NCBI RefSeq assembly: GCF_026151205.1
Contig: NC_087078.1
Location: 4,669,675-4,733,674 of the forward strand
Source of the DNA: Bolinopsis microptera
Lineage: Eukaryota > Ctenophora > Tentaculata > Lobata > Bolinopsidae
DNA length: 64,000 bases
Direction: 5' to 3'
A model generated the notes under the pieces. The model was not told the origin of the DNA. It saw nothing but the letters and a program-made list of their open reading frames with translations, and did not search any database. Each line of letters begins with the position of its first letter. The stretch's first letter is position 1. The translations under genes and the position numbers were made by a program. Of the stretch, positions 10,374 through 58,296 are shown one piece after another.

Positions 10374-10472
10374 GACTGGCTCCACAAGGTCTACAAGGTC
10401 AGCTCCAGCAAGACCTGATGCCTGCAGTACTGACGAGATATGTCTTATCATCCCCAACGAGCCTTCTAGCAA
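10374..10472 (+). CDS. Gene 3, first recognisable exon
   Basis: Acceptor ...CCTGTAG before 10374 and donor GTAGGT at 10473. Reads TGSTRSTRSAPARP then STDEICLIIPNEPSS. It starts with the third base of a codon (entering phase 2) and ends in phase 2, which joins the next exon exactly. Upstream exons were not found and may lie left of the repeats or outside the window. Confidence 0.65.
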
Positions 10473-10662
10473 GTAGGTTCAGCTGCAATTAAGGTTACTT
10501 AAATACCAATTACTTGCTGCAATTAAGGTTACTTAAATACTAATAATAATATATTAAAATTAGTATCTTAAAATAAGGCCATGGTCCTCATTGACCGATA
10601 TCTTCTATTCCCATTTGATGCACATATGTAGTTTGTCCAGCTTATATTGCTTTATTCCTCAG

Positions 10663-10863
10663 GCTGAATGTGGGGGTGATGATTCAGAACAAAGTGTGGG
10701 AAACCCTAGACGTCAGCAACATCATTTGCCTGCACGACACAGACTACCTAACTCCAGTTGAGTACACAGAGATCTGTGTGGCGTGGATAGAGTTTCACCG
10801 ACCTGACCAGACCAGTGTAGCCATCATTTGGAATACAGTCCCTTTTAGCGCCCTCTGCGACAG
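10663..10863 (+). CDS. Gene 3, exon
   Basis: Acceptor TTTATTCCTCAG before 10663, donor GACAG|GTAATA at 10863/10864. Reads MIQNKVWETLDVSNIICLHD and AWIEFHRPDQTSVAIIWNTV, ending ALCD plus two bases. Phase 2 in and out. Its last 33 bases and donor are the unit of the following 44-bp tandem array. Confidence 0.82.
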
Positions 10864-11070
10864 GTAATAATATGGAATACAGTCCCATTTAGCGCCCTCT
10901 GTGACAGGTAATAATATGGAATACAGTCCCTTTTAGCGCCCTCTGCGACAGGTAATAATATGGAATACAGTCCCATTTAGCGCCCTCTGTGACAGGTAAT
11001 AATATGGAATACAGTCCTTTTAAGCGCCCTCTGCGACAGGTAATAATATGGAATACAGTCTATTATAAGC
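10831..11070 (+). repeat. 44-bp array made of the exon end plus its 5' splice site
   Basis: Copies begin at 10831, 10875, 10919, 10963, 11007 and, partial, 11051. Each unit is the last 33 bases of the preceding exon (ending GCGACAG or GTGACAG) followed by GTAATAATATG from the intron. Copies 1 and 3 carry ccctttt/gcgacag and copies 2 and 4 carry cccattt/gtgacag, so the array grew as an 88-bp dimer. The first copy is the functional exon end. Confidence 0.93.
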
Positions 11071-11095
11071 ATATTTTAAAGTACTTATACGGCAG

Positions 11096-11247
11096 GTATA
11101 TTTGGGATCTGAAGAACCATCTCACGGACCACCTGAAGTACGATGTACACGCTAGAGCTTCTAAAAACAGACATATTATTAGTTACTCCTTCCCATGTAA
11201 TCCTACTGAGCTCAAATACAAAAAGGAGACGTGGCAGGAGTGGCAAG
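11096..11247 (+). CDS. Gene 3, exon
   Basis: Acceptor TATACGGCAG before 11096, donor GGCAAG|GTAATT. Reads YIWDLKNHLTDHLKYDVHAR and ELKYKKETWQEWQ. Phase 2 in, phase 1 out; joins the neighbours in frame. Confidence 0.82.
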
Positions 11248-11325
11248 GTAATTTCAAGTACAGGGAGGGGGGGGGGGCAAGGTAATATTAAGTACAGGGG
11301 GGGGGGGGGGGAGGGTAATTCAAAT
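11242..11325 (+). repeat. Donor-site duplication, about 3 copies with G-runs
   Basis: The exon end and donor (GGCAAG|GTAATTTCAAGTACAGGG) recur as GGCAAG|GTAATATTAAGTACAGGG and a degenerate GAGG|GTAATTCAA, separated by runs of G. Confidence 0.85.
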
Positions 11326-11419
11326 CAATCGATTTTGTTAAACTTAAGATATTCCCGTTAAACCCTTAAGATAAGAAGATAATGAAAATAACTTTATATA
11401 AATAACACGTGCATTGTAG

Positions 11420-11763
11420 GGTGCGGGATGGTTGACTGCACCCACATTAGAAACCACGCAGTAAAACTGCAGCTGAAGCAGACAGGAGAGGGGGTGCCCC
11501 TATATATTCGGGACAAGAAAGTGAAGTACCCGGCGTGCAGCAAGATCAGTGTCAGACATTACCACCCGGGCTGTGTGGTGCACTGGTGGGGGTGGACTGA
11601 CACCTGGAAGTACAGACAGCTCCCTTCTCATATGGCTAGTGTAGAGTTCGACTCACTAGACGACGAGTATTGCAAAAGAACTTTTGTCAGTCTTTTAACA
11701 AACACCATGGACGAGTTTTTTGAAAATATTAACAAAGGGGGATGGAAATATATAGCCTGTATG
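11420..11763 (+). CDS. Gene 3, long exon, function unknown
   Basis: Acceptor GTGCATTGTAG before 11420 and donor TGTATG|GTGAGA at 11763/11764. Begins with two bases completing a Gly codon (phase 1 in) and ends phase 0. Reads CGMVDCTHIRNHAV, then KVKYPACSKISVRHYHPGC, HWWGWTDTWKYRQLPS and NKGGWKYIACM. The many Trp, His and Cys residues suggest a compact globular domain. I do not recognise the family. Confidence 0.85.
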
Positions 11764-12600
11764 GTGAGACTGAGGTGAAATGTATATAGCCTGTTTGGTG
11801 AGACTGAGGTGAAATATATAGCCTGTTTGGTGAGACTGAGGTGAAATATATAGCATGTATGGTGAGACTGAGGTAAAATATATAGCCCGTATGGTGAGAC
11901 TGAGGTAAAATATAGTATAGCCCGTATGGTGAGACTGAGGTGAAATATGTAGCCTGTATGGTGAGACTGAGGTGAAATATATAGCCCGTACGGTGAGACT
12001 GAGGTAAAATATAGTATAGCCTGTATGATGAGACTGAGGTGAAATATATAGCCTGTTTGGTGAGACTGAGGTGAAATATATAGCCTGTATGGTGAGACTG
12101 AGGTGAAATATATAGCCTGTATGGTGAGACTGAGGTGAAATATATAGCCTGTATGGTGAGACTGAGGTGAAATATATAGCCTGTATGGTGAGACTGAGGT
12201 GAAATGTATATAGCCTGTTTGGTGAGACTGAGGTGAAATATATAGCCTGTATGGTGAGACTGAGGTAAAATATAGTATAGCCTGTATGATGAGACTGAGG
12301 TGAAATATATAGCCTGTTTGGTGAGACTGAGGTGAAATATATAGCCTGTATGGTGAGACTGAGGTAAAATATAGTATAGCCTGTATGATGAGAATGAGGT
12401 GAAATATATAGCCTGTATGGTGAGACTGAGGTGAAATATATAGCCTGTATGGTGAGACTGAGGTGAAATATATAGCCTGTACGGTGAGACTGAGGTGAAA
12501 TATATAGCCTGTATGGTGGGCTACTAATGTGAAATATATAGCCTGTATGGTGGGCTACTAATGTGAAATATATAGCCTGTATGATGGGCTACTAATGGTA
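11746..12600 (+). repeat. ~32-bp array made of the exon end plus its 5' splice site, about 26 copies
   Basis: Unit AAATATATAGCCTGTATG followed by GTGAGACTGAGGTG. The first 18 bases are the exact end of the preceding exon (KYIACM) and the rest is its donor and the start of the intron. Some copies have lengthened spacers (aaatatagtatagcc) and the last three carry gggctactaatg instead of the donor. Confidence 0.95.
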
Positions 12601-12603
12601 AAG

Positions 12604-12738
12604 GAGGCTCACTACCAAAAAGGTCTGGTTCCGCACCCGCCGCGCTTATATGATGTCCCATGTCCTATACCTGTTGCCTCAGGGTCTGAGAGTAAGATGA
12701 ATTTATCACAACAGTTTTATGGCGAGGTTTTTATCTGA
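12604..12738 (+). CDS. Gene 3, probable terminal exon
   Basis: After GGTAAAG the frame reads EAHYQKGLVPHPPRLYDVP and CPIPVASGSESKMNLSQQFY, ending GEVFI and a TGA at 12736-12738. It enters in phase 0, as the previous exon requires. The acceptor lacks a pyrimidine tract, so the exact start is uncertain. A GTAAGA inside it (after SGSE) could be a donor instead, in which case the gene continues. With this exon the five exons give 309 residues plus stop. Confidence 0.55.
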   Translation, partial: EAHYQKGLVPHPPRLYDVPCPIPVASGSESKMNLSQQFYGEVFI

Positions 12739-13616
12739 TATATCTCAGATTATTCGACTGAAATAGGTGTGCTTTGAATGACAAAATAATATATCTACAA
12801 AGTGACTAAATACGCAACTCCGCAAGCAACCGAACTTTAAAATTTATATTTCCCATACAATCAGGTGAGAACTTATTAAGTATTTTGTTACTAATTTGTT
12901 TGAGTTCTAAGCTTTACGATAGCTTTCTGTAAAGATTACACTGTGTTGGATTGCTTTTAAAATTTCTTTGAAATTCTTTTAACAATACCCTAATACATGT
13001 TTTACTGCCTATCCAACTTTAATATTACCCTAATCTGCTAATATAGAACAGAAATTACAACTGTCAATACTCTTACCAGGCACATACTCTAACGTTGATT
13101 TGTAGATCAAACAGTTTGTTAAATATCTTAATTAAGTTTTCATCCCCAGTAATCTATCACATGATCGACCCACTCAAGAGAACGAAAAACGAAACAACTT
13201 AATTAAATTACACAAAAATGTTTGGTTCCGAGTAACTTAGAGCTTTAATATTTACTAAGCAATGAAAGTGAATTATAAAAATAAATGGTACCAATTATAG
13301 GGACAAATCTTTCAAGAATTTCTAATGCTAAATTCTAAAAAATAAAAATAGCATCTAAAACTACACTGGTACACTGGTCACTTTTATACTTTTATAGACA
13401 CCACTTTACCAGGTCCTCAGATTTCTAAAAGGGGTTGTTGCTGGGTGGAAACAAATCAGTTATTTAGTGAACAACTCTATAGCTCAAATTAGCTCCAACC
13501 TAAAAGGGCTTGGTGTGTATACTGTCCAGCAGCTAGACGTTCAAAACTAGGACTTATAGATATTTATAGGTACTTAGTGGACGAGATTAATCGTATGATA
13601 GTCTTTGTAGAGATCA
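12739..13616. other. Convergent intergenic sequence, nothing recognised
   Basis: AT-rich stretch between the 3' ends of plus-strand gene 3 and minus-strand gene 2. No repeats or open frames of note. Confidence 0.5.
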
Positions 13617-13817: not shown

Positions 13818-16800
13818 CTGCAATACTTTCAGTTAAATTATATTTTATAAATACATGTATAAATAAATTATAGGTCAAATGAAAAAAAGTTCAAATGGCA
13901 AGTAACAAGTTCAACTTCAAGTTTCATACTATAGCAATTAAACTAAAGCAATTGTCAGGAAATTAGATTAGATCTAAAAATATTCTCTTAAGACAGTTTG
14001 CTCCTTCATAAACTTAGTCTTAACAGCAGTGCATTATTAGGAATTTCCTCGAGTGCCTGAATTTTGAGATTTGATTTAATCTGACACTTTCCTGGCGGTG
14101 GACAATTCGTTTTGTTTCAAGTTGTGGAATCTTGGTCGGTGTAGTCACCTTGTTGTTGTTTGAGGACCTTTTGGCTGTGTGCCTTTAGTAGCCAGCCAAC
14201 GTTGGGCATACAACAGTAGCTTAATTTAACCGTGTTTCTGTTGATGACCTTGTGGAGGTGGTGGTGCTTTGGGAAATACGTGTCTAGGATGTTGAAGAAT
14301 TTCTTCCCAATATTAGTTTCCACATTTGAGCTAAAGGGTGGGTTAAACAATGTTACATTTCTTTTTGTATTTTTTCTGGGTGCTGTGTGCTCCTGGTATT
14401 GTAGCTCTTCATCAAAACCACTATGTTTGAGAGCGGACTCGTATACGTGTTTTGTACCAAGGAAAGATCTTTTGTCACTTTATAGGTTGCTGAGTCGTGT
14501 TGAGACCATGTCAGGGATGTTATTGATTATGCTCTTTGGATGGCTTTTTAGGCTTTTTGTTGGGTCTGTGTGATTTGTCAGTTACATTGAGCGAGATATC
14601 CAAGAATTGTCTACGCTTTCGTCACACAACTCTACAGTTATCTTAAGCCTTTCTTCTTTGAAAGTTTGGTGTAACTTCTTTCTGATCCTGTCAAGCTTTT
14701 GACCATTGCAGTTTGTTATGAATGCAAGTCCATCGTCGCGGTACAGGCTGAGGTGTCCGTTTTCAATGATCTTTGAGACTTTGCTTAATAAGTCTATAAG
14801 TAAAGCCCTACTAGCTCAGAGGTCTCTGCTCCGTCGAAGCTCCGATTGTAAATTCAAACTCAGGGCTGGTTTTTTTTCTCCAAGGTTTTCCCTCCGCTGA
14901 ATAATAAAGATTCCTTGCTCAGTTTTATAATTTATTCCTCGTCCGTTGTGATGTTGATGTAGGATCGGGCGTGTTCTATGGCTCTGGTTAGCAGTGAACA
15001 TGATATGGATGGGTAAAACTAAAACTCTTGTACGTCAAACTTTATGAAACGTGGCTTGGATGAGGGTTGTAAGTCTTTGAACCATTGCAGAACGTTAGAT
15101 GAGCTTTTCCAGAGCTTGTGTTCTGAGTTTGTATTTGTTTGATGATTTTCTTTAGTATTGTTTTACTGACGATGCCCAAGTTTGACTTAGCTGGATTAAT
15201 TAATCTGCACACCTTGCTTGTGGCAAAATATTCTTTATGGTCTTTTAGTGTGTAAATAAATTATATATTTTCATGGGATTATATATTTTCATGGAGTAGT
15301 CAGCAGTAATTATATATTTTTCTGGAGAAGTCAGCAGTAATTATATATTTTCCTGGAGTAGTCAGCAGTAATTATATATATTTTCCTGGAGTAGTCAGCA
15401 GTAATTATATATTTCCATGAAGTAGTCAGTAATAATTATGTATTTTCCTGGAGGAGCCAGCAGTAATTATATTGCAGAAATTAATTAATTAATTACAGTA
15501 ATTACAGTAATTAACTACAGTAATTACAGTAATTAATCACAGTAATTAATTACAGTAATTAATTGCAGTAATTACAATATATATATATTGCAGAAATGCA
15601 AATAAAACTGAAACTTATGCTCTAACCTCAGAATCATATTCGTCACTAGTGACACTGTTAAGAGAAACCATTGAGGATATGTGACTTGTAGTGCCAGAAA
15701 GCTGGCAACTCTGACCACTAGTTCTTCGGGAGGAGTAGTTAGAGTAGCTGGACGGGTAACTGAACCTAGGGGAGGAGGAGAGTTAATCCTAGGAGGAGAG
15801 TAGCTGAACGTGTAACTGAACCTAGGGGGAGGATGAGAGTCAATCCTAGGAGTAGAGTAGCTGGACGTGTAACTGAACCTAGGGGAGGAGGAGAGTTAAT
15901 CCTAGGAGGAAAGTAACTGGACGTGTAACTGAACCTAGGGGGAGGAGGAGAGTTAATCCTAGGAGGAGAGTAGCTGGACGGGTAACTGAACCTAGGGGGA
16001 GGATGAGAGTTAATCCTAAAAGGAGAGTTAATTATCACGGTTACAGTTACATTAACGAAAGATATATTTTCATCACCAATAAATATTTGCCTGGAATTAG
16101 AGCCGGATTCAGAGCAGGTGAGCAGGTTGACGTACTGACCAGCGTCCCTCTGCAGCTCTGTGGACCTCTCCAGGTTCTCGCTGGACAACGCTTCTAGGGA
16201 GGAGGATTTGATTATAATTTGATTGAGGAGCACTATAACTCGAAGCCATTACTCGGCCCTATTGTATTGTATTGTATTAGATGCCATCGTGTAGTAGGTG
16301 GTCTCCTGCACCTTTTCTCCCTCGACATAAAAGAAGAAACCTAGACATGCAACCTGCAATCCGAATGTGACTGCAGCCCTTACGGAAGACTATGAGGTCT
16401 TCATGCTTTTATAATTAATGATGCATAATATCACTCACCCATTTCCTTGAAGCTAGATCTAACTGGACTGCAGTAAGTGATGGGCTCCATAGTTCTGACA
16501 GTGCTCACGCTCATAGTGTCATCCTGGTGAAGAAGAGACTCCAGATCGTCAGCAGCTTCCCGCGCCGCAACTTCTGGTCCATTATCCATAGCAGGAGCTT
16601 CTTTAGAGTCCAGCCTGCAAATTGTGCTAACCTTACCGGTAATAGTTACTTACCTTGATCAAGGCTCGATCGGGATCCCGGCTTAATCCTGGTACCGGCC
16701 AAAATGCCGAATTTTGGCCGGGACCAAATCGGGATTTTTTCTCAATTTTTGATTATTTTTTATATACTGAGAAACTGTTTGCACAAATGAACGATTGGAA

Positions 16801-19800
16801 AAACTTAAGTTTAAAGCAACATTATTTACCAATTAATCAACAAAACAGTGTCAGAGTTAAGTGCCGGTTTTTTCAGTGAGCTGTGCTTGTAATCAGTAAA
16901 AGATACCAGGGTTGTCGTGTCAGAGTTAATTGCTGGTTTGTTGGGTAAGCTGTGATTGTGCTTGTAATCAGTAAAGGATACCAGGGTTGGAGTTGAGTAA
17001 ATTAATGCTACTCTACGAAATGTCGTCATCATCTTATTCGTCAGTAAATCTAACTGCCTCTTCATCAGAATCCGTAACCATGCTATTTCGTAGTTTATTG
17101 CTCTTTAGTTGTATTTAATAATCAAGTTAATTTATAAGTTTTCCGGCCTTTTTTTCGTAAGCAACTGAGTGAGGAGGTAGATGCAGATAAATCCAGACAA
17201 GCTGGTACAAAGAGTGATGTTTCCTCCAGAACTCCAGGGGTTCCAGTCACCTGATCCCACGTAATGAATGAGGTCTTTATGCTTGACTTAACCCTAAACC
17301 TAAACCTAAACCTAAACCTAAACCTAAACCTAAACCTAAACCTAAACCTAAACCTAAACCTAAACCTAAACCTAAACCTAAACCTAAACCTAAACCTAAA
17401 CCTAAACCTAAACCTAAACCTAAACCTTAACCTAAACCTAACCCTAAACCTAACCCTAAACCTAACCCTAAACCTAACCCTAAACCTAACCCTAAACCTA
17501 ACCCTGAACCTAACCCTAAACCTAACCCTGAACCTAACCCTGAACCTAACCCTAAACCTAAACCTAAACCTAAACCTAACCCTAAACCTAACCCTAAACC
17601 TAACCCTAAACCTAACCCTAAATCTAACCCTAAACCTAACCCTAAGGCTAAACCTAACCCTATAAATCAATAAATAGACTAAAATGGGCCCATTCTAGTG
17701 TTTACCTCATCTGAAGTGTACTGATCATAGCATGAAGTGGATGGAAATCTAGCTTCCGCCCGAAAACAAACACGGGCGAAATTCTAGTTAAATTTAACAT
17801 CGAATTTTTTGGACTGAATGCGTTTATAAGACAGTTTTTATCTCCTGTTTTTGTAGTTTTATTTTTAAAAGCTTACACAAGTTGAGTATTTTGGTGTGCC
17901 AACTCCCCAATCTTTATATTTGCATATTTAGCTTCTTGAGTGGCGAAGTCCTTTTCGCACTTCAACCTCTTTAGTTCATCTAATATCTGAATATTTGGTA
18001 AATTAATACTACAACCTCTTTAGTTCATCTACTATCTGAATATTTGATAATTAAAACTTCAATCTATTTAGTTCATCTAATATCTGAATGTTGGGTAATT
18101 GAAACTGATAACTGATTGAACCGAGTTAAGGTTGATCGATGAAAATGAGTACCAGTAACCATGGTATCAGTCCCAGACAAATGTAAAAGTTTAATTACAT
18201 TTTGGTATTTTTGTTCAGTTTCTTCGGTTTTTCTTTCAGCTTCTTTTCGTTTCCTGTCAGCTTCTTTTCGATTTTTTTGTTCTGACTGAAATTCAACTGT
18301 CAAATATGAACATGCTATTATTCCATATTGGTGGTTTTTCTCTTTTAATGCAGTTTCAAGTATTAAACTTAAAATACAGAATAAGAAAGATAGTTATGTG
18401 ATAATAATATAAAGCGTTATATTACTAGTAATGTAGGGACCGTATTTCAATCACACCACCCATCACCCCAGCTATGATAGCTCATTAGGAGATTAAGGTC
18501 GCTACCCTCGCTCCCACTAAATCACCATGGTTACAGGTACTAACATTAAGGTCGCTACCCTCGCTCCCACTAAATCACCATGTTTACAGGTACTAACATT
18601 AAGGTCGCTACCCTCGCTCCCACTAAATCACCATGTTTACAGCTACTAACATTAAGGTCGCTACCCTCGCTCCCACTAAATCACCATGGTTACAGGTACT
18701 GACTAACCTCGCTCCCACTAAATCACCATGGTTACAGGTACTATCATTAAGGTCGCTACCCTCGCTCCCATTAAATCACCATGGTTACAGGTACTGACCA
18801 CCCTCGCTCCCACTAAATCACCATGGTTACAGGTACTATCATTAAGGTCGCTACCCTCACTCCCATTAAATCACCATGGTTACAGGTACTGACTACCCTC
18901 GCTCCCGCTAAATCACCATGGTTACAGCTTTACAGGTACTAACATAAAGGTCGCTCCCACTAAATCACCATGGTTACAGGTACTGACTAACCTCGCTCCC
19001 ACTAAATTACCATGGTTACAGGTACTGACTAGAGTGACTACCCTCGCTCCCACTTAATCACCATGGTTACAGGTACTAACTTTAAGGTCGCTACCCTCGC
19101 TCCCACTAAATCACCATGGTTAGTGGTTACAGGTACTAACATTAAGGTAGCTACCCTCGCTCCCACTAAATCACCATGGTTACAAGTACTGACTAACCTC
19201 GCTCCCACTAAATCACCATGGTTACAGGTACTAACATAAATGTGTTAATAGAAACCTTGAGCTCCTCTTCCAAGTAGTCCTGCCGGGCGTAATGAAATTG
19301 ATTTAAATTAGGAGTTCCATCTTCAGCCTCGCTAACACGACTAAGCTTGCAGCTACTGTTTATCCTGCCAAACATTTAGAATTAGAAGAATGAGTTTTTA
19401 AAAAAGTTGTGCTAATGTTTTGATTTTTTTGCGGGTTCCAGTGAAAAGTGAAAAGTTTATCACAGATATTACACATTGCTACTGGGGTGTTTTCCTTCAT
19501 CTCACGATTAAAGTTTTTTTAAACTTTTAAAGCTATTATACCTTTCAAGGTCGTTTGTGTCAATCTGAATAGTTTTCTTTGGTGACGAATTGTTGCAAGT
19601 GAAGAAGGGATCAATGCGATCTTTGTTCTTAATAAGGCGGAAATCCCCATTTTCCATTGCTGCAGCACTTCGTTTAGGGTCCTGTTATAAGGGGCTTGTA
19701 ATAAGGGTCCTGTTATAAGGGGCTTTTATTTGTTATATAGCAGTATTGAAAGTATTAATACCTTCAATACTACTATAAACAACAGATTTGATATTATTTG

Positions 19801-22800
19801 TTATATATTATCTGTTAAATATAACAAACTAGAAACCCACTAGACGAAAGATTTGTATGAGTAAATTTTAGAAATCAATTATTTCTTTCCATCATCTAGC
19901 TCTGTAGAAAGTATGTATATTATATACTTACCAGCCACTTGTTTCCCACAGCATTTAATATTTCTTTATGATCCTTCTTAGTTACGGGAACATCGTCACA
20001 TTTAGCTCTCCTGCCCATGGTCAGGGTCAGATGAGGCTGGTTCTTCATTAGTCTCAGTGCTTCCTCTTGCTTTATTCCTACAAAACTAGCTCCTGAACAA
20101 GGACAATATTCATTAGTCTCAGTGCTTCCTCTTGCTTTATTCCTACAAAACTAGCTCCTGAACAAGGACAATATTCATTAGTCTCAGTGCTTCCTCTTGC
20201 TTTATTCCTACAAAACTAGCTCCTGGACAAGGACAATATTCATTAGTCTCAGTGCTTCCTCTTGCTTTATTCCTACAAAACTAGCTCCTGAACAAGGACA
20301 ATATTCATTAGTCTCAGTGCTTCCTCTTGCTTTATTCCTACAAAACTAGCTCCTGAACAAGGACAATATTCATTAGTCTCAGTGCTTCCTCTTGCTTTAT
20401 TCCTACAAAACTAGCTCCTGAACAAGGACAATATTCATTAGTCTCAGTGCTTCCTCTTGCTTTATTCCTACAAAACTAGCTCCTGAACAAGGACAATATT
20501 CATTAGTCTCAGTGCTTCCTCTTGCTTTATTCCTACAAAACTAGCTCCTGAACAAGGACAATATTCATTAGTCTCAGTGCTTCCTCTTGCTTTATTCCTA
20601 CAAAACTAGCTCCTGAACAAGGACAATATTCATAAGTCTCAGTGCTTCCTCTTGCTTTATTCCTACAAAACTAGCTCCTGAACAAGGACAATATTCATTA
20701 GTCTCAGTGCTTCCTCTTGCTTTATTCCTACAAAACTAGCTCCTGAACAAGGACAATATTCATTAGTCTCAGTGCTTCCTCTTGCTTTATTCCTACAAAA
20801 CTAGCTCCTGAACAAGGACAATATTCATTAGTCTCAGTGCTTCCTCTTGCTTTATTCCTACAAAACTAGCTCCTGAACAAGGACAATATTCATTAGTCTC
20901 AGTGCTTCCTCTTGCTTTATTCCTACAAAACTAGCTCCTGAACAAGGACAATATTCATTAGTCTCAGTGCTTCCTCTTGCTTTATTCCTACAAAACTAGC
21001 TCCTGAACAAGGACAATATTCATTAGTCTCAGTGCTTCCTCTTGCTTTATTCCTACAAAACTAGCTCCTGAACAAGGACAATATTCATTAGTCTCAGTGC
21101 TTCCTCTTGCTTTATTCCTACAAAACTAGCTCCTGAACAAGGACAATATTCATTAGTCTCAGTGCTTCCTCTTGCTTTATTCCTACAAAACTAGCTCCTG
21201 AACAAGGACAATATTCATTAGTCTCAGTGCTTCCTCTTGCTTTATTCCTACAAAACTAGCTCCTGAACAAGGACAATATTCATTAGTCTCAGTGCTTCCT
21301 CTTGCTTTATTCCTACAAAACTAGCTCCTGAACAAGGACAATATTCATTAGTCTCAGTGCTTCCTCTTGCTTTATTCCTACAAAACTAGCTCCTGAACAA
21401 GGACAATATTCATTAGTCTCAGTGCTTCCTCTTGCTTTATTCCTACAAAACTAGCTCCTGAACAAGGACAATATTCATTAGTCTCAGTGCTTCCTCTTGC
21501 TTTATTCCTACAAAACTAGCTCCTGAACAAGGACAATATTCATTAGTCTCAGTGCTTCCTCTTGCTTTATTCCTACAAAACTAGCTCCTGAACAAGGACA
21601 ATATTCATTAGTCTCAGTGCTTCCTCTTGCTTTATTCCTACAAAACTAGCTCCTGAACAAGGATAATATTCATTAGTCTCAGTGCTTCCTCTTGCTTTAT
21701 TCCTACAAAACTAGCTCCTGAACAAGGACAATATTCATTAGTCTCAGTGCTTCCTCTTGCTTTATTCCTACAAAACTAGCTCCTGAACAAGGACAATATT
21801 CATTAGTCTCAGTGCTTCCTCTTGCTTTATTCCTACAAAACTAGCTCCTGAACAAGGACAATATTCATTAGTCTCAGTGCTTCCTCTTGCTTTATTCCTA
21901 CAAAACTAGCTCCTGAACAAGGACAATATTCATTAGTCTCAGTGCTTCCTCTTGCTTTATTCCTACAAAACTAGCTCCTGAACAAGGACAATATTCATTA
22001 GTCTCAGTGCTTCCTCTTGCTTTATTCCTACAAAACTAGCTCCTGAACAAGGACAATATTCATTAGTCTCAGTGCTTCCTCTTGCTTTATTCCTACAAAA
22101 CTAGCTCCTGAACAAGGACAATATTCATTAGTCTCAGTGCTTCCTCTTGCTTTATTCCTACAAAACTAGCTCCTGAACAAGGACAATATTCATTAGTCTC
22201 AGTGCTTCCTCTTGCTTTATTCCTACAAAACTAGCTCCTGAACAAGGACAATATTCATTAGTCTCAGTGCTTCCTCTTGCTTTATTCCTACAAAACTAGC
22301 TCCTGAACAAGGACAATATTCATTAGTCTCAGTGCTTCCTCTTGCTTTATTCCTACAAAACTAGCTCCTGAACAAGGACAATATTCATTAGTCTCAGTGC
22401 TTCCTCTTGCTTTATTCCTACAAAACTAGCTCCTGAACAAGGACAATATTCATTAGTCTCAGTGCTTCCTCTTGCTTTATTCCTACAAAACTAGCTCCTG
22501 AACAAGGACAATATTCATTAGTCTCAGTGCTTCCTCTTGCTTTATTCCTACAAAACTAGCTCCTGAACAAGGACAATATTCATTAGTCTCAGTGCTTCCT
22601 CTTGCTTTATTCCTACAAAACTAGCTCCTGAACAAGGACAATATTCATTAGTCTCAGTGCTTCCTCTTGCTTTATTCCTACAAAACTAGCTCCTGAACAA
22701 GGACAATATTCATTAGTCTCAGTGCTTCCTCTTGCTTTATTCCTACAAAACTAGCTCCTGAACAAGGACAATATTCATTAGTCTCAGTGCTTCCTCTTGC

Positions 22801-25800
22801 TTTATTCCTACAAAACTAGCTCCTGAACAAGGACAATATTCATTAGTCTCAGTGCTTCCTCTTGCTTTATTCCTACAAAACTAGCTCCTGAACAAGGACA
22901 ATATTCATTAGTCTCAGTGCTTCCTCTTGCTTTATTCCTACAAAACTAGCTCCTGAACAAGGACAATATTCATTAGTCTCAGTGCTTCCTCTTGCTTTAT
23001 TCCTACAAAACTAGCTCCTGAACAAGGACAATATTCATTAGTCTCAGTGCTTCCTCTTGCTTTATTCCTACAAAACTAGCTCCTGAACAAGGACAATATT
23101 CATTAGTCTCAGTGCTTCCTCTTGCTTTATTCCTACAAAACTAGCTCCTGAACAAGGACAATATTCATTAGTCTCAGTGCTTCCTCTTGCTTTATTCCTA
23201 CAAAACTAGCTCCTGAACAAGGACAATATTCATTAGTCTCAGTGCTTCCTCTTGCTTTATTCCTACAAAACTAGCTCCTGAACAAGGACAATATTCATTA
23301 GTCTCAGTGCTTCCTCTTGCTTTATTCCTACAAAACTAGCTCCTGAACAAGGACAATATTCATTAGTCTCAGTGCTTCCTCTTGCTTTATTCCTACAAAA
23401 CTAGCTCCTGAACAAGGACAATATTCATTAGTCTCAGTGCTTCCTCTTGCTTTATTCCTACAAAACTAGCTCCTGAACAAGGACAATATTCATTAGTCTC
23501 AGTGCTTCCTCTTGCTTTATTCCTACAAAACTAGCTCCTGAACAAGGACAATATTCATTAGTCTCAGTGCTTCCTCTTGCTTTATTCCTACAAAACTAGC
23601 TCCTGAACAAGGACAATATTCATTAGTCTCAGTGCTTCCTCTTGCTTTATTCCTACAAAACTAGCTCCTGAACAAGGACAATATTCATTAGTCTCAGTGC
23701 TTCCTCTTGCTTTATTCCTACAAAACTAGCTCCTGAACAAGGACAATATTCATTAGTCTCAGTGCTTCCTCTTGCTTTATTCCTACAAAACTAGCTCCTG
23801 AACAAGGACAATATTCATTAGTCTCAGTGCTTCCTCTTGCTTTATTCCTACAAAACTAGCTCCTGAACAAGGACAATATTCATTAGTCTCAGTGCTTCCT
23901 CTTGCTTTATTCCTACAAAACTAGCTCCTGAACAAGGACAATATTCATTAGTCTCAGTGCTTCCTCTTGCTTTATTCCTACAAAACTAGCTCCTGAACAA
24001 GGACAATATTCATTAGTCTCAGTGCTTCCTCTTGCTTTATTCCTACAAAACTAGCTCCTGAACAAGGACAATATTCATTAGTCTCAGTGCTTCCTCTTGC
24101 TTTATTCCTACAAAACTAGCTCCTGAACAAGGACAATATTCATTAGTCTCAGTGCTTCCTCTTGCTTTATTCCTACAAAACTAGCTCCTGAACAAGGACA
24201 ATATTCATTAGTCTCAGTGCTTCCTCTTGCTTTATTCCTACAAAACTAGCTCCTGAACAAGGACAATATTCATTAGTCTCAGTGCTTCCTCTTGCTTTAT
24301 TCCTACAAAACTAGCTCCTGAACAAGGACAATATTCATTAGTCTCAGTGCTTCCTCTTGCTTTATTCCTACAAAACTAGCTCCTGAACAAGGACAATATT
24401 CATTAGTCTCAGTGCTTCCTCTTGCTTTATTCCTACAAAACTAGCTCCTGAACAAGGACAATATTCATTAGTCTCAGTGCTTCCTCTTGCTTTATTCCTA
24501 CAAAACTAGCTCCTGAACAAGGACAATATTCATTAGTCTCAGTGCTTCCTCTTGCTTTATTCCTACAAAACTAGCTCCTGAACAAGGACAATATTCATTA
24601 GTCTCAGTGCTTCCTCTTGCTTTATTCCTACAAAACTAGCTCCTGAACAAGGACAATATTCATTAGTCTCAGTGCTTCCTCTTGCTTTATTCCTACAAAA
24701 CTAGCTCCTGAACAAGGACAATATTCATTAGTCTCAGTGCTTCCTCTTGCTTTATTCCTACAAAACTAGCTCCTGAACAAGGACAATATTCATTAGTCTC
24801 AGTGCTTCCTCTTGCTTTATTCCTACAAAACTAGCTCCTGAACAAGGACAATATTCATTAGTCTCAGTGCTTCCTCTTGCTTTATTCCTACAAAACTAGC
24901 TCCTGAACAAGGACAATATTCATTAGTCTCAGTGCTTCCTCTTGCTTTATTCCTACAAAACTAGCTCCTGAACAAGGACAATATTCATTAGTCTCAGTGC
25001 TTCCTCTTGCTTTATTCCTACAAAACTAGCTCCTGAACAAGGACAATATTCATTTCTATCCAATACGCTATTTAAAGTATCGTGATTTGAACTATCCCTA
25101 CATATATGTAATAATATAACAATAACATAATAATAATCGCATAGTACAATATACGGGAAACAGTTCGCTCCCAAATGACTCACTGCCACACTTGATGATC
25201 TGATCGTGTGGCTTGATAGTGCCTTGTCTGTCCACGTAGCCCCCCTTTATAACGTCCTTCACAAATATACTAACGTACGGCACCAATCTGTCCGGACCCA
25301 GTCCGTAAAGGTAAAAACCAAGTCCAAAAGCGTTGTCTTTTTCCAACTCTACCTGGATACCGCAGATGGGAATACAAAAATTACTTTTAAAATATTTTAC
25401 TGATTATTCTATTAAAATTCTGTTAAGAGCAGATGCAATGGGACAAATGTAAGCAGATGGGACAAATGTAAAGCTGAGTTTGTTACTATGGTAACCAGTT
25501 TGTGAAATAAGAAAATACCTGGTACAGGTGAGTTTCTGGGGAGAGCGCTGCGTGGAGCTGGGCGATGCACCAATTCTTATCAAGATTTAAATTATCGTAT
25601 CTGGAGAGTAAAAATATTGATTTAGCTACAGCTGTCTATATAACACAGACACACTTCGCCGGAACGAGACACAGTAGTTACACAGTAGTTACACAGTAGT
25701 TACACAGTAGTTACACAGTAGTTACACAGTAGTTACACAGTAGTTACACAGTAGTTACACAGTAGTTACACAGTAGTTACACAGTAGTTACACAGTAGTT

Positions 25801-42262: not shown

Positions 42263-42429
42263 TGCAGTGGAACTAGGCTTGGCAAGACAAAGTAGCGTTA
42301 TCTATATCCCTCGCCACGGGAAATGAAACTTGAAACTTGATCGTGAACAGATAAAGACATATTTCTCAAAAATTGGGGTGGAATTTTCATTTATATATAG
42401 TACGTCATTCTGAAGTACATGATATTTGT

Positions 42430-49400: not shown

Positions 49401-52400
49401 TTAACACTAAACATAGTATTCTTTCGAACCTATGAAGAGTGTAATTTCACACTGCATAAAACGCGAGACGGGAAGTCGGGCTTGAGTACAAAATTTCAAA
49501 ATTAAATCATAATTATAATGTTACCTTGATGACATCCTCTGCTTTTTTGGTTGGGAATTTCTGATTATCTTTAGGCTCGAGTTGGAATGTATTTTCATAA
49601 AGGACGGCTGGCCCTTTAGGACCATCCTGAAATACAATGTCAAAATCATTATAGAACTACTAACTGTCACGTGACTGATGCTGATTCATTAGAAATACTA
49701 ACTGTCACGTGACTGAAGCTGATTCATTAGAAATACTAACTGTCACGTGACTGAAGCTGATTCATTAGAAATACTAACTGTCACGTGACTGAAGCTGATT
49801 CATTAGAAATACTAACTGTCACGTGACTGAAGCTGGTTCATTAGAAATACTAACTGTCACGTGACTGAAGCTGATTCATTAGAAATACTAACTGTCACGT
49901 GACTGAAGCTGATTCATTAGAAATACTAACTATCACGTGACTGAAGCTGATTCATTAGAAATACTAACTGTCACGTGACTGAAGCTGATTCATTAGAAAT
50001 ACTAACTGTCACGTGACTGAAGCTGATTCATTAGAAATACTAACTGTCACGTGACTGAAGCTGATTCATTAGAAATACTAACTATCACGTGACTGAAGCT
50101 GATTCATTAGAAATACTAACTGTCACGTGACTGAAGCTGATTCATTAGAAATACTAACTGTCACGTGACTGAAGCTGATTCATTAGAAATACTAACTATC
50201 ACGTGACTGAAGCTGATTCATTAGAAATACTAACTGTCACGTGACTGAAGCTGATTCATTAGAAATACTTACTGTCACGTGACTGATGCTGATTCATTAG
50301 AAATACTAACTGTCACGTGACTGATGCTGATTCATTAGAAATACCAAGGATGGTAAATGCGTTTTGGGGAGACTACGCGTAGGTACTACGCATACGTATT
50401 TCCCGATGATAAATTACGTATTTCAAATTAAGTTGCAGTAACGCGCGAACATCTATATATAAATATTACATTACAGTATATGGAATCGTGGCCTAATTGG
50501 TTAATACGCTAGCTCCATATCAGCAGATTGCGAGTTCGAGACTCGGATAGGATAATTTTTCCCCATACTTTTTGGCAATTATGAATAACTAATGAATAAC
50601 TAAAAATACCTCTGTAATATAACTAGCAAGGTGAAATGAAATCGTCATCCGGCCGAAAAATTTATTATAGCCGTTTTAAAAGTTTATTATAGCCGTTTTT
50701 TCTTTCCAGGCTGGATTCCTAGTCACTTTTTAAACTTATGCCACTGGGAAGTCTGTGTTAATCCGGTAACCGGTTTCAAAATTCAAGCAAGAGAGACTTG
50801 TGATCTTAGTCTGCGAATATTGTAATAGATAAAAATGCACTGGAACTGGGTCTCGGTTGAAAGTCTATTCCTCGAGGGAGGCATAACTGCTTTATAACCT
50901 GAGAAGCTCTGCTCTGCAGCAGACCGACTGATTGGTTGCAGTTCAGCATAAGAATAGCAAGTCGCTGCAGCGTTTTCATTCGAGCACCGTGAAGTCTCCA
51001 AAACGACTGTCAGTATTGCTATATTAATATACCACTGGGCCAGCGACGCACGCGCAAATATCACTAATCTGTAATCACGTATTTCGAAAGAGATACGCGC
51101 GTATTTTGAGAAATTTTACCATCAAAGAATTTAAGCGCCAAATTTTGCCGTATTTCACGTATTTCTTAGAATTTTTGAATACGGCGTATTTACAGGCGAT
51201 TTTTTGACGTATTTACCATCGATGAGAAATACTAACTGTCACGTGACTGAAGCTGATTCATTAGAAATACTAACTGTCACGTGACTGAAGCTGATTCATT
51301 AGAAATACTAACTGTCACGTGACTGAAGCTGATTCATTAGAAATACTAACTGTCACGTGACTGAAGCTGATTCATTAGAAATACTAACTGTCACGTGACT
51401 GAAGCTGATTCATTAGAAATACTAACTGTCACGTGACTGAAGCTGATTCATTAGAAATACTAACTGTCACGTGACTGAAGCTGATTCATTAGAAATACTA
51501 ACTATCACGTGACTGAAGCTGATTCATTAGAAATACTAACTGTCACGTGACTGAAGCTGATTCATTAGAAATACTAACTGTCACGTGACTGAAGCTGATT
51601 CATTAGAACTACTAACTGTCACGTGACTGAAGCTGATTCATTAGAACTACTAACTGTCACGTGACTGAAGCTGATTCATTAGAAATACTAACTATCACGT
51701 GACTGAAGCTGATTCATTAGAAATACTAACTGTCACGTGACTGAAGCTGATTCATTAGAAATACTAACTGTCACGTGACTGAAGCTGATTCATTAGAACT
51801 ACTAACTGTCACGTGACTGAAGCTGATTCATTAGAACTACTAACTGTCACGTGACTGAATACTAACGTCTACTTCACTGTCGCTGTGGAAACTGCCCCCC
51901 CTCGTGGACATTGAACTCTTTCTCGTGGTCTGCAAGTTTAGAGACACTCTGTTGATGGCATCCTGCCACCGTTTCTGAAACATTAGTGCTCTTTTACGTT
52001 TTTATATTTTTTTGTTAGTATACCTAGTTTGTTATAGTTTGTCTTACTTTATTTATATTTCTGCAAGGGCGGAAAATGAAATCATGTAGACCAAAATTTT
52101 TAATAATTTCAGTGAAATGACCATGACCACTCGAGTCCATGGCAACCCAAGTCCATGGCAACCCGTCGGAACAACAGATATTTTACCTGACCAAGCCCGC
52201 CAAATTTTTTTCGCATCATCCTAAAAGTAGTGTAGTCAGCAGCTTGTCCTTCGAACAGGACCGAACAAGAATAACAACAACAAAAATACCACAACCTAAA
52301 GAGTCTACAAGCGCTCAGTATTATAATATAGTATTAATATATACGCACTACTATAATATCATGTCTCTATATGATGGCTACAATTATGGACCATCGCCAC

Positions 52401-55400: not shown

Positions 55401-58296
55401 CATCAGTAATCCATGATTCTTGATTAAGTTTTGTGACTTTGTCGTTGATCAGGCGTTTGATGTAAGATTGTGGAATTGGGCAATTCAAAGTGGATTCACT
55501 GGTTGTACCATTTTTGGCCAGCTCGTCTGCTTTTTCATTACCCCACAATCCAATGTGTGCAGCTATCCATCTGATCTCTAAGGTGTTAGTGGATCCGAGT
55601 GTATTGAGGGTGTCGTAACAGTCTCTAGTAGTCCTACTCCTCGTTGAAGGTGAGGATATGGCTTGAATAGAGGAGAGACTGTCTGACCATATGATGATGT
55701 GTGTGTTTGTATAAGTTGATAGATATTTACAAGCTTCGATGATGGCAGTGAGTTCTGTTTGATAAACGGTGCAATAATCGGGAAGCTTGAATGATCTTTC
55801 ATCTAGTGTAGTGTTGTTGTTGTCTGTGGTGATAATATAACCAGCCCCGCTACCTGAGTCTGTGCGTGACCCGTCTGTGTAGCAGGTGATGGTTTCACTG
55901 GGGATGTTGTCGATGGTGTTTTGGAGTGAGCCTCTATAACCAATGTTGTCAGCTCCAGGAGTGGTGACCGTGAAGCGTCGTTCAAGCATCATGGTTGGTA
56001 TAGATAGGTCTCTCATCATTTTGTACTGTGCCATCATCACTGTATTTTTTAGTAGTTACTGGGCAGATCGTAAATTTCATAATGGGAAACAACTCAGACT
56101 ACCACCTACATGCTTAAAATTGAAAGCAAAATGACTGGAATAATAAGGAATAATAATGAACTAAGGCAAATATCTAACTGAAATTTTAGTGGAAAATCGT
56201 TCATTTTTCGAAGAATTTGTGCCCAAATTTTCGGTCGCCCAAATGAGTTCAAATTTTCTGCCCAAATTTTTCGGGCTCAAATAAATTGTGCTCAATATAA
56301 TGGCACACAAATTTTTGGGAACTAAGGTATATATTTTGTAGCTGAACTTCTACACAGTGATTGAGTGATAACTTGATAAGCTGTGTTGACTAAATCCTCG
56401 TTATTCTTTGCATCATTGTACATATTATAATCTCAATAAATTTCTATAATTAATGTAGCTGTGAAAGTAGCTCAAAAAAAAACTATATGTATATAGGCTA
56501 GGGACTTAATTATGTCCTCATATGAGCATATTCAAATTTCAATAGTCCAGTACTCCAGTTTTGAGTTATCAGTAGGTGCCCGTCAAGCGACAACGATAAA
56601 ATATTTTGTGATTTTGACACCACCTCGGTGTCCAGTTTTCAAAAGGGCATAAAAGCTCATAGTAAAGTCGTGTTAAAGTTGATTTCGTGGTTTCAGTAAA
56701 ATGGTAACAGATATACCTAGCTGCTATATAATCTTACTATATATAGTAAGACTTACTTATATATAAGTATATACTTATATATAAAGCGAAACGATATATA
56801 GTATAGATAGTAAAATTACTCACCATATGTCCTAATCCCGTAAATCCGACACTTTTCTTAATACTAGAGCTAGTCGACTCTCCTGAGTTTATGCGACTCA
56901 TCATCAAAAATATTACAGGGTGGGCTAATAGTAGCTTTACAGGGTGGGCCAATAGTAGCTTTACGGGGTGGTTTGAGATTAATATGCGTAATACAATGAC
57001 AAAATTTAAATATTGTCTGCGACAAAAGAAAAGTAATGGACTTAAAATCTCATCTTGTCCTTTAAGTTTATCAATATTCAATAAACACGTATTCAATAAA
57101 TCAAACTATAGCTGGCTCTTATTTCCAACCTTACAGCTTTTGAACATTAGAGGCTTGTAAAAGAAATAAAAAAGCTGAACATAAAACTCTCAAAAAGTGT
57201 ACTTATAAAAGAAGTGATAATAAATATAGCAGCAAAACTGAAAAGTGCCGAAGCATCTGCCTCATCTTCTTGCTAAAGCAATCAATACGAAACACTGAGG
57301 GAGCGTGGTATTGTCACTAGTATATATACTATATTATATAGAGCGTAGTATTTAATATACTCCCAATATGCTCTAACAGACCCACCAGCTGATAAAATAA
57401 ACGCTCAAGTGCAGTTACCTTTACAACCTACCTATGTGACCTACAAGGTGGCTCGTACATCGCCGCCCCCCTCTGAGAATATATTTATTTTTCTGTTTTA
57501 ATCACAATGTGATATATATAATGAGTTAGCAGGGTACCTAGCATGTATAACCAGAGAACTGCGGTTACTTACTCAAACAGCTCGGCGTGCGGATCTGTGA
57601 CTGTGAACGTTGGAGTAAACAACGACACCACCCAACAGTAGGAGTAAAAACAAAAACCTCCAGAGAGTTACCCTGGTTACTTCACTCTGTCTCCTGCTTC
57701 CTCCAGAGAGTTGCCCTGGTTACTTCACTCTGTCTCCTGCTTCCTCCAGAGAGTTGCCCTGGTTACTTCACTCTGTCTCCTGCTTCCTCCAGAGAGTTGC
57801 CCTGGTTACTTCACTCTGTCTCCTGTTTCCTCCAGAGAGTTGCCCTGGTTACTTCACTCTGTCTCCTGCTTCCTCCAGAGAGTTGCCATGGTTACCTCAC
57901 TCATCCAATGTGGACACACACATGCCAGCTAAATAAGTCTTTGTAAGCAAAGACTCTGAATTCCAGATCCTTGCCCTCCCAAAAAGAGGGATAGACCGGG
58001 TATAGAGCGGCACCCCCCTCATTAGGGGCACCACCCCAGGAAGGGCAGCAGTACTATAAGAGCATAAGTATTAAGCATACAGGCCTCTCACCCCATTTAT
58101 TTAATTGTCTCACCTGATCCCTCTGATCCGCAAAGCTCATCATTCTGGACGTTCGCCGGGACTGAGCGTAGTTTTCTGAAACCCCACTGGTGGAGGCCAC
58201 ACTCCCCTTCCTCGATCCGAGCACACTCATTCTCCGAGGAGCAACTAAGCTCATTCTGCGTGAGACGGCGCTTTCTCGCCTTACTGTTTCATTCAT
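46372..58296 (-). CDS. Gene 1 (joined exons): Tctex-type dynein light chain with Ser/Arg-rich N-terminus
   Basis: Axonemal or cytoplasmic dynein light chain of the Tctex1-domain (DYNLT/TCTEX1D) family. Exons: 58296-58114, 57600-57573, 56924-56824, 51974-51867, 49626-49525, 48119-47989, 46657-46592, 46471-46372. They sum to 819 nt (272 residues) with agreeing phases. The C-terminal ~125 residues carry the family signatures: YENTFQLEPKDNQKFP, LTTNLSELIRTQVKQ, FKIVVMVLIGSMEGQGVRC, ASRCLWYPQCD and LFAVGTVYGVYYE before the stop. The N-terminal extension has repeated basophilic-kinase-type sites (SRRMS, PRRMS, SRKGS, SRRTS), similar in style to the N-terminus of vertebrate TCTEX1D4. Exons 2 and 3 are the least certain. 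Confidence 0.87.
46592..46657 (-). CDS. Gene 1 exon 7
   Basis: Acceptor ATATTGTTTCAG, donor CTTCTAG|GTTTGG. Reads FKIVVMVLIGSMEGQGVRCA then S. Phase 2 in and out. Confidence 0.9.
47085..47930. repeat. ~270-290-bp tandem repeat, 3 copies, in a gene 1 intron
   Basis: cgcccacgtgcaaattag recurs at about 47113, 47402 and 47673, followed each time by gcacgtgcaattatt-like and tttaaatcggctgtat-like blocks. Copies differ by several percent. Confidence 0.85.
47989..48119 (-). CDS. Gene 1 exon 6
   Basis: Acceptor CTTACCTCAAG, donor AAATAG|GTAAAC. Reads LIQAIFNSNLRDKKYISDSS, RNLTTNLSELIRTQVKQELG, KQN. Matches the helical middle of a Tctex1 domain. Phase 0 in, 2 out. Confidence 0.9.
48235..48450. repeat. 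Dispersed repeat, inverted copy of 53750-53940
   Basis: tttgatggtttgaataatcg and ggccattcaagttg here are the complement of the sequence at 53750-53940 with moderate divergence. Both copies lie in gene 1 introns. Confidence 0.75.
48689..49152. mobile_element. 464-bp MITE with 23-bp terminal inverted repeats
   Basis: GTCACCTCCCAAGTAAAAGG at the left is perfectly complementary to the right end (cttttacttgggaggtgac). No coding capacity and no clear target duplication. In the intron between gene 1 exons 5 and 6. Confidence 0.85.
49525..49626 (-). CDS. Gene 1 exon 5, start of the Tctex1 domain
   Basis: Acceptor TTGTATTTCAG, donor ATCAAG|GTAACA. 34 codons: DGPKGPAVLYENTFQLEPK then DNQKFPTKKAEDVIK. 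Phase 0 in and out. Confidence 0.93.
49655..50344 (-). repeat. 38-bp array (first part), about 18 copies
   Basis: Unit gaaatactaactgtcacgtg then actgaagctgattcatta. In gene orientation each unit has GACA|GTTAGTATT, close to the exon 4 junction GAC|GTTAGTATT. Each unit also has a CACGTG E-box. The same array resumes after the hAT-like insertion. Confidence 0.93.
50345..51224. mobile_element. 880-bp hAT-like non-autonomous element with a tRNA-like core
   Basis: Imperfect inverted tips (CAAGGATGGTAAATGCG against CATCGATGGTAAATACG) flanked by identical AGAAATAC (50337-50344 and 51225-51232), an 8-bp duplication taken from the 38-bp array unit. It therefore inserted after the array had expanded. 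No transposase. Contains a tRNA-like segment at about 50484-50555. Confidence 0.85.
50484..50555 (+). tRNA. tRNA-like sequence (probably tRNA-derived, not functional)
   Basis: Has an A-box-like TGGCCTAATTGG and a B-box-like GAGTTCGAGACTC at tRNA spacing. The acceptor and anticodon stems pair poorly, so a working tRNA is unlikely. Probably an internal RNA polymerase III promoter from a captured tRNA or SINE. Confidence 0.55.
51225..51860 (-). repeat. 38-bp array (second part), about 17 copies
   Basis: Continuation of the array at 49655-50344, running up to the exon 4 donor. Variants tatcac and gaactac recur at intervals, suggesting block duplication. Confidence 0.93.
51867..51974 (-). CDS. 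Gene 1 exon 4
   Basis: Acceptor CTAATGTTTCAG. Reads KRWQDAINRVSLNLQTTRKS and STRGGSFHSDSEVD. Donor taken as GTAGAC|GTTAGT; GTGAA|GTAGAC six bases earlier also keeps phase 0 and would drop two residues. Confidence 0.82.
51975..53600. other. Gene 1 intron, nothing recognised
   Basis: Unique AT-rich sequence with short open frames that lack matching splice sites. A CAAA run lies at 53402-53420. Confidence 0.45.
53620..53722. repeat. Two poly-G tracts (16-20 G each)
   Basis: G-runs at about 53620-53646 and 53701-53728, each preceded by a taagttagct- or tgttagctgg-like sequence, so a ~80-bp duplication. G-quadruplex potential on the plus strand. Confidence 0.9.
53994..56327. mobile_element. ~1.1-kb TA-target MITE interrupted by a nested LINE
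   Basis: Tips CCTTAATTCCCAAAAATTTG and the complement of CCTTAGTTCCCAAAAATTTG, flanked by TA on each side (Tc1/mariner-type target). Subterminal aaatttgggc/gcccaaattt palindromes. It was split by the LINE insertion at 54781-56014. Confidence 0.82.
54781..56014 (-). mobile_element. 5'-truncated LINE with RNase H, poly(A) tail and 13-bp target duplication
   Basis: The minus-strand frame ending at 55015 has an RNase H domain: CYTDGSRTDSGSGAGY (first Asp), QTELTAIIEAC (Glu), WSDSLSSIQAI (second Asp) and WIAAHIGLWGNEKADELAK (His and last Asp). A CPKCGDEEETVSHFLGQCP zinc knuckle follows. This layout belongs to I/Jockey-type LINEs. Its poly(A) lies at 54781-54803. ATCATTTTGTACT at 54770-54782 and 56015-56027 is the target duplication, so the first residues of the frame (MMMAQYKM) come from flanking DNA. 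The endonuclease and RT are absent. Confidence 0.92.
56328..56823. other. Gene 1 intron, AT-rich with a TA-rich palindromic tract
   Basis: Bases 56715-56810 are tatatataagta-type repeats. No exon seen. Confidence 0.5.
56824..56924 (-). CDS. Gene 1 exon 3, Ser-rich
   Basis: Strong donor CATATG|GTGAGT. Reads SRINSGESTSSSIKKSVGFT then GLGHM. The acceptor is uncertain: TACTATTAG at 56925 gives phase 1 in and the right frame, adding HPVIFLMM; GATGATGAG further inside is the alternative but its phase does not match. Confidence 0.62.
56915..56975 (-). repeat. 24-bp duplication over the exon 3 acceptor
   Basis: acagggtgggctaatagtag and acagggtgggccaatagtag sit 24 bases apart, with a third partial copy. 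The proposed acceptor (CTATTAG) is in the copy nearest the exon. Confidence 0.8.
57573..57600 (-). CDS. Gene 1 exon 2, small and tentative
   Basis: Donor GTTTGA|GTAAGT is very strong. Acceptor CGTTCACAG (or CACAG six bases later). In the frame set by exon 1 it reads SQIRTPSCL or IRTPSCL and ends in phase 1, which is what exon 3 needs. Confidence 0.5.
57658..57897. repeat. 43-bp minisatellite, about 5 copies
   Basis: Unit ctccagagagttgccctggt then tacttcactctgtctcctgc and ttc. Lies in the intron between gene 1 exons 1 and 2. Confidence 0.95.
58114..58296 (-). CDS. Gene 1 exon 1 with start codon
   Basis: ATG at 58296-58294, 61 codons, donor GATCAG|GTGAGA, phase 0. Reads MNETVRRESAVSRRMSLVA, PRRMSVLGSRKGSVASTSGV and SRRTSRMMSFADQRDQ. 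The recurring R-R/K-x-S pattern suggests phosphorylation by PKA-like kinases. Confidence 0.85.

Follow-up and report, generated by a model that had tools for sequence, protein, structure and literature searches.

Minisatellite arrays spanning splice junctions in the ctenophore Bolinopsis microptera and their likeness to the mirages of amphioxus

Introduction

Tandem duplications of exon/intron boundaries, termed mirages, have been described in several amphioxus genes, i.e., Adh3, the globins BflGb6 and BflGb9, TnC and PGBD5 (PMC3087553, PMC3902484). In these reports, both 5' and 3' boundaries are affected, splice signals are present in many of the repeats, mRNA splicing is described as undisturbed, and array length varies between haplotypes and, at Adh3, somatically; mirages are considered possibly general in cephalochordates, and a role in intron gain is proposed for them (PMC3087553, PMC3902484). 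Unit lengths are given as 10–72 bp for Adh3 and 150–160 bp for the globins (PMC3087553). A related scheme, the AGGT model of intron gain by tandem genomic duplication, has a duplicated segment with splice-like signals spliced out as an intron (PMC3443670), and internal tandem repeats at exon–intron boundaries are described for human paralogs in a further report (PMC2812944).

Among ctenophores, TRF repeats are reported to amount to 13% of the Hormiphora genome (PMC8527503). A search of the open-licence literature returned no report of mirages in a ctenophore, and the terms 'tandem repeat', 'intron' and 'satellite' are absent from the main text of a Beroe paper (PMC11184263).

The window analyzed here is the whole stretch of 64,000 nucleotides from Bolinopsis microptera (contig NC_087078.1, positions 4,669,675 to 4,733,674, forward strand). 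The original prediction for this window described tandem arrays with splice junctions inside the repeat unit, for which it knew no standard name, although they had already been named mirages (PMC3087553, PMC3902484). We find that the Bolinopsis arrays are a real instance of this named structure, large in size and in a distant animal lineage that is new for it.

Methods

Tandem repeats were listed with TRF, and every array named in the original prediction is present in that list. Junctions were called with a purpose-written two-strand exon/intron finder; its training set was a 304-kb sample, about 0.1% of the genome, in which exons are mostly ab initio predictions. The initial splice-site matrices were taken from general knowledge and then retrained on the finder's own predictions, and frame consistency between exons is imposed by the finder and is therefore not independent evidence. 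A first setting, in which 1,303 exons were lumped into 15 genes, was discarded, a second fused neighboring genes, and the third was kept. Runs with arrays masked and unmasked were both analyzed; masking disfavors exons that extend into arrays and leads to an undercount, and unmasked runs place exons within arrays and lead to an overcount.

Exons of dynein heavy chains, for which Pfam DHC_N2 gave 72 matches, served as a benchmark for the finder. Within 25 fetched loci, which hold 63 of the 72 matches, it recovered 57 of the 63 homology-defined exon matches, the junctions of the six unpredicted ones being left uncounted. Locus L032 (2 kb) was left out of the analysis, and loci L001–L008 lie in and around the window's 20–25 kb array. 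Two dynein heavy-chain matches (C3:8952495-8953706 and C1:6101794-6103008) are situated in open reading frames of 3357 and 3703 codons, respectively, and apparently have few or no introns; most other matches fall in short open reading frames.

For the crossing test, which covers arrays in introns between predicted exons, each array was collapsed to one unit and, in 20,000 draws, its seed was put with equal probability at any position that touches the intron. A site was scored as acceptor-like when its score reached at least the lower quartile of predicted acceptors.

Arrays at splice junctions in the window

Tandem repeats cover 34% of the window and about 27% of the 304 kb sampled (weighted over six blocks, with shares of 29.7, 26.7, 26.1, 21.9, 2.1 and 20.0%; GC is 0.386 in the sampled C7 block). 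The sample contains 199 merged arrays with units of at least 10 bp, or one per 1.5 kb, with a median unit of about 22 bp; array-bearing introns, once their arrays are collapsed, have a median length of 306–913 bp depending on the setting.

Thirteen arrays or duplications, counting those at 49.7–51.9 kb as two, had been assigned to splice junctions in the original prediction. This holds for five, which cross a predicted exon edge (10.8, 11.25, 18.0, 19.7 and 20.0–25.05 kb); the other eight comprise one borderline case (33.9 kb), one that is adjacent (32.2 kb), four that are ambiguous (11.75, 15.8, 49.7 and 51.2–51.9 kb) and two without an exon (29.6 and 56.9 kb). Three of the thirteen belong to gene 1:

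10829..11060, plus strand: array of 44 bp x 5.3 at the donor of gene 1 exon 10663-10863; supported
11242..11320, plus strand: duplication of about 34 bp x 2.4 spanning the donor AAG/GTAATT after 11247; supported
11745..12583, plus strand: array of 32 bp x 25.6 at the end of the gene 1 exon starting at 11420; ambiguous

The unit of the first array consists of 35 exon bp and 9 intron bp with the junction CAG/GTAATAATA (donor CAG/GTAATA), and the end of the exon is placed at 10791, before the array, in the masked run and at 10863 in the unmasked run. The second includes 6 exon bp of gene 1 exon 11096-11247. In the third, the candidate donor is ATG/GTGAGA at 11764, or the array may merely take in the last coding bases and the stop; the finder favors a terminal exon ending within the array over a donor. 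In gene 1, arrays thus touch two or three donors in a row, two of them supported and one ambiguous. Pfam gave no match to gene 1 above the cut-off (best 13.4 bits vs 28.5).

The acceptor arrays are located on the minus strand, the largest of them in a gene with a PDZ domain:

20044..25054, minus strand: array of 65 bp x 77 at the acceptor TTGTTCAG/GAGC of the PDZ exon; supported
19932..20092, minus strand: exon coding for the second portion of the PDZ domain (finder and Pfam PDZ)
25184..25352, minus strand: exon coding for the first portion of the PDZ domain (finder and Pfam PDZ)
17959..18106, minus strand: array of 48 bp x 3.1 at the acceptor of predicted exon 17877-17986; supported
19683..19729, minus strand: two-copy duplication at the acceptor of predicted exon 19542-19681; supported
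15740..16028, minus strand: 57-bp array with eight good acceptor-like sites; ambiguous

Each unit of the 65-bp array holds 49 exon bp of exon 19932-20092, and the Pfam PDZ profile is matched across the acceptor junction (8.8e-10, residues 27-108 aligned with profile positions 1-79). Among the five supported cases in the window, homology backing is confined to this acceptor, the basis for the other four junctions being coding score and splice signals alone. The 48-bp array overlaps 28 bp of predicted exon 17877-17986, and the duplication at 19.7 kb is a repeated 22-mer with 6 exon bases, the overlap being judged by eye. The exon calls beside the 57-bp array are weak, with coding scores of 4–5. 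A CCTAAA/CCCTAA-like repeat block at 17289-17662, in a predicted intron, resembles degenerate telomeric sequence by eye.

The remaining arrays are as follows:

33832..34484, minus strand: 45-bp array at the donor TAG/GTAACG of predicted exon 34481-34696; borderline
32192..32589, minus strand: 18-bp array at the donor CAG/GTACAC of exon 32593-32732; adjacent, not crossing
29565..29886, minus strand: 54-bp array with the donor-like TTG/GTGAGT; unsupported
49652..50344, minus strand: 38-bp array, with the acceptor of predicted exon 49525-49626 lying 25 bp downstream; ambiguous
51225..51859, minus strand: 38-bp array, unit as in 49652-50344, with the weak donor GAC/GTTAGT; ambiguous
56913..56971, no strand assigned: 24-bp x 2.5 repeat; unsupported

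The 45-bp array overlaps its predicted exon in the final 4 bp, and the 18-bp array begins 3 bp into the intron. The finder gave no exon neighboring the 54-bp array and none adjoining the 24-bp repeat on either strand, and the exon at 51225-51859 was called in a discarded finder setting only. The two 38-bp-unit arrays are separated by an insert of about 0.9 kb (50345-51224) with inverted ends GATGGTAAAT and ATTTACCATC, which is probably a DNA transposon inserted into a single array. The window also contains a large inverted repeat at 36487-37786 (arms of 317 and 212 nt, 97–98% complementary) and, at 1-1281 and 55026-56039 (minus strand), open reading frames that by eye resemble non-LTR retrotransposon endonuclease/reverse transcriptase and RNase H.

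Junction arrays in conserved genes

Homology-backed cases outside the window, i.e., DDRGK1, two annexins and one dynein, are stronger than those inside it:

C1 block 56548-59978 (L026:6548-9978), minus strand: DDRGK1 donor array of 47 bp x 72, at the exon ending EETQRNLLLEFI
C1 block 53797-56341 (L026:3797-6341; C1:2053797-2056341), minus strand: DDRGK1 135-bp array, about 18 copies, at the next donor
65158-65393 in window numbering (L015:1158-1393): annexin acceptor array, Pfam Annexin
105175-105863 in window numbering (L019:1175-1863): annexin donor array of 44 bp x 15.6, Pfam Annexin
L047, donor at 1640: dynein donor duplication of 49 bp x 2.1 at a homology-defined exon

Two successive donors of DDRGK1 lie in arrays, and the exon with its donor in the 135-bp array ends EDGTIN(G). 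When the repeated stretch is counted once, the spliced protein matches Pfam DDRGK without net gap (5.7e-46, residues 85-249 aligned with profile positions 2-166), and the printed alignment with PDB entry 8qfc (4.9e-37) is ungapped at both junctions. In the annexin with the acceptor array, the repeat that holds the junction matches Pfam Annexin with 1.9e-12 (residues 18-54, profile positions 4-40) and the whole protein with 8.4e-70; for the annexin with the donor array the value is 7e-58, with residues 17-80 (profile positions 2-65) spanning the junction. The units of the homology-backed arrays span 34–135 bp.

These cases bear on the possibility that the junctions are artefacts of gene prediction, either because the many splice sites in arrays prompt exon calls or because the junctions themselves are wrong. 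Several of the originally proposed junctions indeed lack exon support and exons appear inside arrays in unfiltered runs, but protein homology spans the junctions in DDRGK1, in the annexins and in the PDZ gene, and we regard such an artefact as barely credible. The original prediction is right that splice junctions are truly present in some arrays, that this occurs in either orientation and in genes unrelated to each other, and that such arrays lengthen introns. The accompanying claim that donor arrays never hold an acceptor, nor the reverse, does not hold when splice sites are scored: there are 22 acceptor-like sites in the DDRGK1 135-bp donor array, 5 in the annexin donor array, and 2 each in 10829-11060 and 11242-11320, and the acceptor array 17959-18106 has one donor-like site by an equivalent cut-off.

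Three further candidates for crossings are rejected or doubtful. At L044:1-156, 26-bp units like TACTAATACCCACAG stand directly before a dynein acceptor; by eye they are stacked 3' splice-site-like sequences with a branch-point-like TACTAAT and zero exon bases, and the array, which ends at the acceptor without an exon base, was not counted. A crossing at L056 is a misprediction, its donor CAAAG/GTACTG preceding the array. The array at C1 block 78401-79519 was a crossing in the masked run but a single in-frame coding array in the unmasked run, and hence probably holds no junction; this array of 33 bp x 34 (L028:8401-9519; C1:2078401-2079519), in frame and with an EDGGDENKPRT-like repeat, is probably a coding minisatellite.

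Crossings compared with chance

Observed and expected crossings are, in masked runs, 7 and 7.79 (68 arrays), 5 and 6.92 (42) and 9 and 10.74 (113), and in unmasked runs 9 and 7.87 (64 arrays), 5 and 6.25 (41) and 11 and 9.94 (97). No excess over uniform seeds is seen in these six settings (ratios 0.72–1.14, P for excess 0.37–0.88), with upper 95% limits of the ratio of 1.59–2.17 by setting, so that a twofold enrichment falls within the limits. The DDRGK1 135-bp array is missing from the 12 crossing arrays of this test despite its homology support, and the addition of one crossing for it to each of the six settings yields ratios of 0.87–1.27. Short collapsed introns and the size of the median unit lead to the expectation that about one seed in ten crosses a junction; crossings occur at roughly 1–4% of the sampled junctions (9/366 and 14/399; dyneins 1/124).

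An earlier form of the test gave the same outcome in 18 settings, except for four unmasked ones without a coding-score filter, in which 37–40 crossings were counted against 20–21 expected (P 0.0001–0.0004). We judge this excess to be an artefact of exons called inside arrays, since dropping exons that are more than 60% array (with collapsed introns to 3 kb) gives 11 against 9.94.

At the dynein loci, a single donor out of 62 is crossed and none of the 62 acceptors (one misprediction removed), and 1.1 crossings are expected from the array-edge density in the flanking intron. No array lies wholly within a dynein exon in 11,496 bp, against 11.4 expected, where, as these exons were found by homology, array-disrupted exons may be missed. 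In these data, arrays are excluded from exons yet not from junctions.

The original prediction favored a genome-wide process that seeds duplications at or across boundaries, with replication slippage or repair at AGGT micro-homologies as a possible mechanism; R-loops would be a further conceivable trigger, and any such process should put more arrays on junctions than chance would. Such a process would fit the clustering of arrays in two genes, on three successive donors of gene 1 (with the one ambiguous case) and on the two of DDRGK1, as well as the apparent excess in unmasked, unfiltered runs and the gathering of array ends just upstream of acceptors, where the final 50 bp of intron ahead of predicted acceptors hold 24 array 3' ends and the 300-bp stretch between -400 and -100 holds 44, a pile-up that may be partly due to short introns. 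It is not supported by the crossing counts (5–11 vs 6.25–10.74 expected in the six settings, 1 vs 1.1 in the dyneins), and against it stands the lower density of array 5' edges on the exon side of donors (at 183 donors in the masked run, 5 in the last 46 exon bp vs 22 in the first 100 intron bp). We consider this origin unlikely; these arrays have no need of a junction-seeking process. The second option of the original prediction, selection that tolerates such duplications, fits the data.

Variation among copies

Divergence between copies of one array is 0–5% in most cases and reaches 10% for the array at 18.0 kb, in its intron part. Eight arrays were listed for a comparison of exon- and intron-derived divergence and the annexin acceptor array was skipped; six of the seven arrays tested show no difference, and the seventh, the annexin donor array, is more diverged in its exon part than in its intron part (P 0.024). 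Of the exon-part variants pooled from six arrays, 12/26 are synonymous (P 0.021). The copies mostly evolve like unconstrained sequence.

The DDRGK1 135-bp array is where a function for the copies, as alternative splice sites, as cassette exons or as a reservoir exchanging sequence with the coding copy, would be sought. All 18 matched copies encode one peptide followed by GTGGGT, an acceptor-like AG precedes the peptide-coding stretch, the unit has sub-repeats with acceptor-like sites, and there are four places where the finder predicts 63-nt exons. Furthermore, the exon-part variants are synonymous in 3/3 cases in this array and in 7/9 over both DDRGK1 arrays (about 26% expected; P 0.0017 for a comparison chosen post hoc), an excess that might stem from sequence exchange with the coding copy, which is under selection. 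Against a function stand the equal divergence of exon and intron parts of the same array (1.54% and 1.07%, P 0.36), the few synonymous variants and the stops in the annexin donor array (1/8, two copies with a stop) and the array at 18.0 kb (1/4, one copy with a stop), and amphioxus splicing, which is said to be undisturbed (PMC3087553). Functional arrays are in our view quite improbable. The same low credence applies to the broader idea that the ctenophore arrays are not inert, the exon edge being repeatedly replaced by unequal exchange, or the 63-nt stretches of DDRGK1 serving as in-frame cassette exons; if it were true, exon ends would evolve by array turnover, and minisatellite length would yield protein variants.

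Discussion

The explanation that we think probably correct is that the mirages are ordinary minisatellites whose founding duplication chanced to straddle an exon/intron boundary. Minisatellite seeds would arise at random in a genome with many minisatellites and short introns, and those wholly within exons would be purged by selection, as duplication of exon sequence adds or shifts codons. A duplication over a donor would leave the exon and its donor, followed, within the intron, by another copy of the exon edge with its donor; with the first donor used, the protein would be unchanged, and acceptors would present the mirror image. Junction-crossing seeds would survive because the rest of the exon keeps, beside it, one undamaged edge with a functional splice site. 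The exon-proximal copy would be spliced and the extra copies would turn into intron, making junction-straddling duplications nearly as harmless as intronic ones, and subsequent growth by replication slippage or unequal exchange, even to dozens of copies, would add intron only. Directly observed within this explanation are the arrays, the homology-backed anatomy of the junctions, the lack of arrays in the dynein exons analyzed and the random-like crossing rate.

On this explanation, mirages would be expected wherever a genome combines rampant minisatellites with short introns, which would change them from an oddity to a predictable by-product. Introns with dozens of near-identical splice sites would, moreover, be a natural set for testing how the spliceosome chooses among them.

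In structure, the Bolinopsis arrays agree with the amphioxus mirages: the unit in DDRGK1, the annexins, the PDZ gene and L047 combines exon sequence, splice signal and intron, and donors (DDRGK1, annexin, dynein) as well as acceptors (PDZ gene, annexin) are affected. Units of 34–135 bp fit the mirage range, 135 bp lying between the two reported groups (PMC3087553). Copy number differs, with up to 77 copies in Bolinopsis vs 3 and 6 units in the two BflGb6 haplotypes (PMC3087553). The frequency in Bolinopsis is the roughly 1–4% of sampled junctions given above, and the arrays are known here from the sequence of one assembly. The host is a ctenophore here and a cephalochordate in the mirage reports cited, and taxon is not part of the definition of the structure.

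Human introns derived from tandem arrays were reportedly described by Zhuo et al. in 2007. The human cases are similar to the Bolinopsis arrays in that gene structure is altered at boundaries, but they appear to be new or alternatively spliced introns, whereas the Bolinopsis arrays cross ordinary conserved junctions (PMC2812944). In the AGGT model, a new intron is made from a duplicated exon; in Bolinopsis, in contrast, it is existing introns that appear to grow (PMC3443670).
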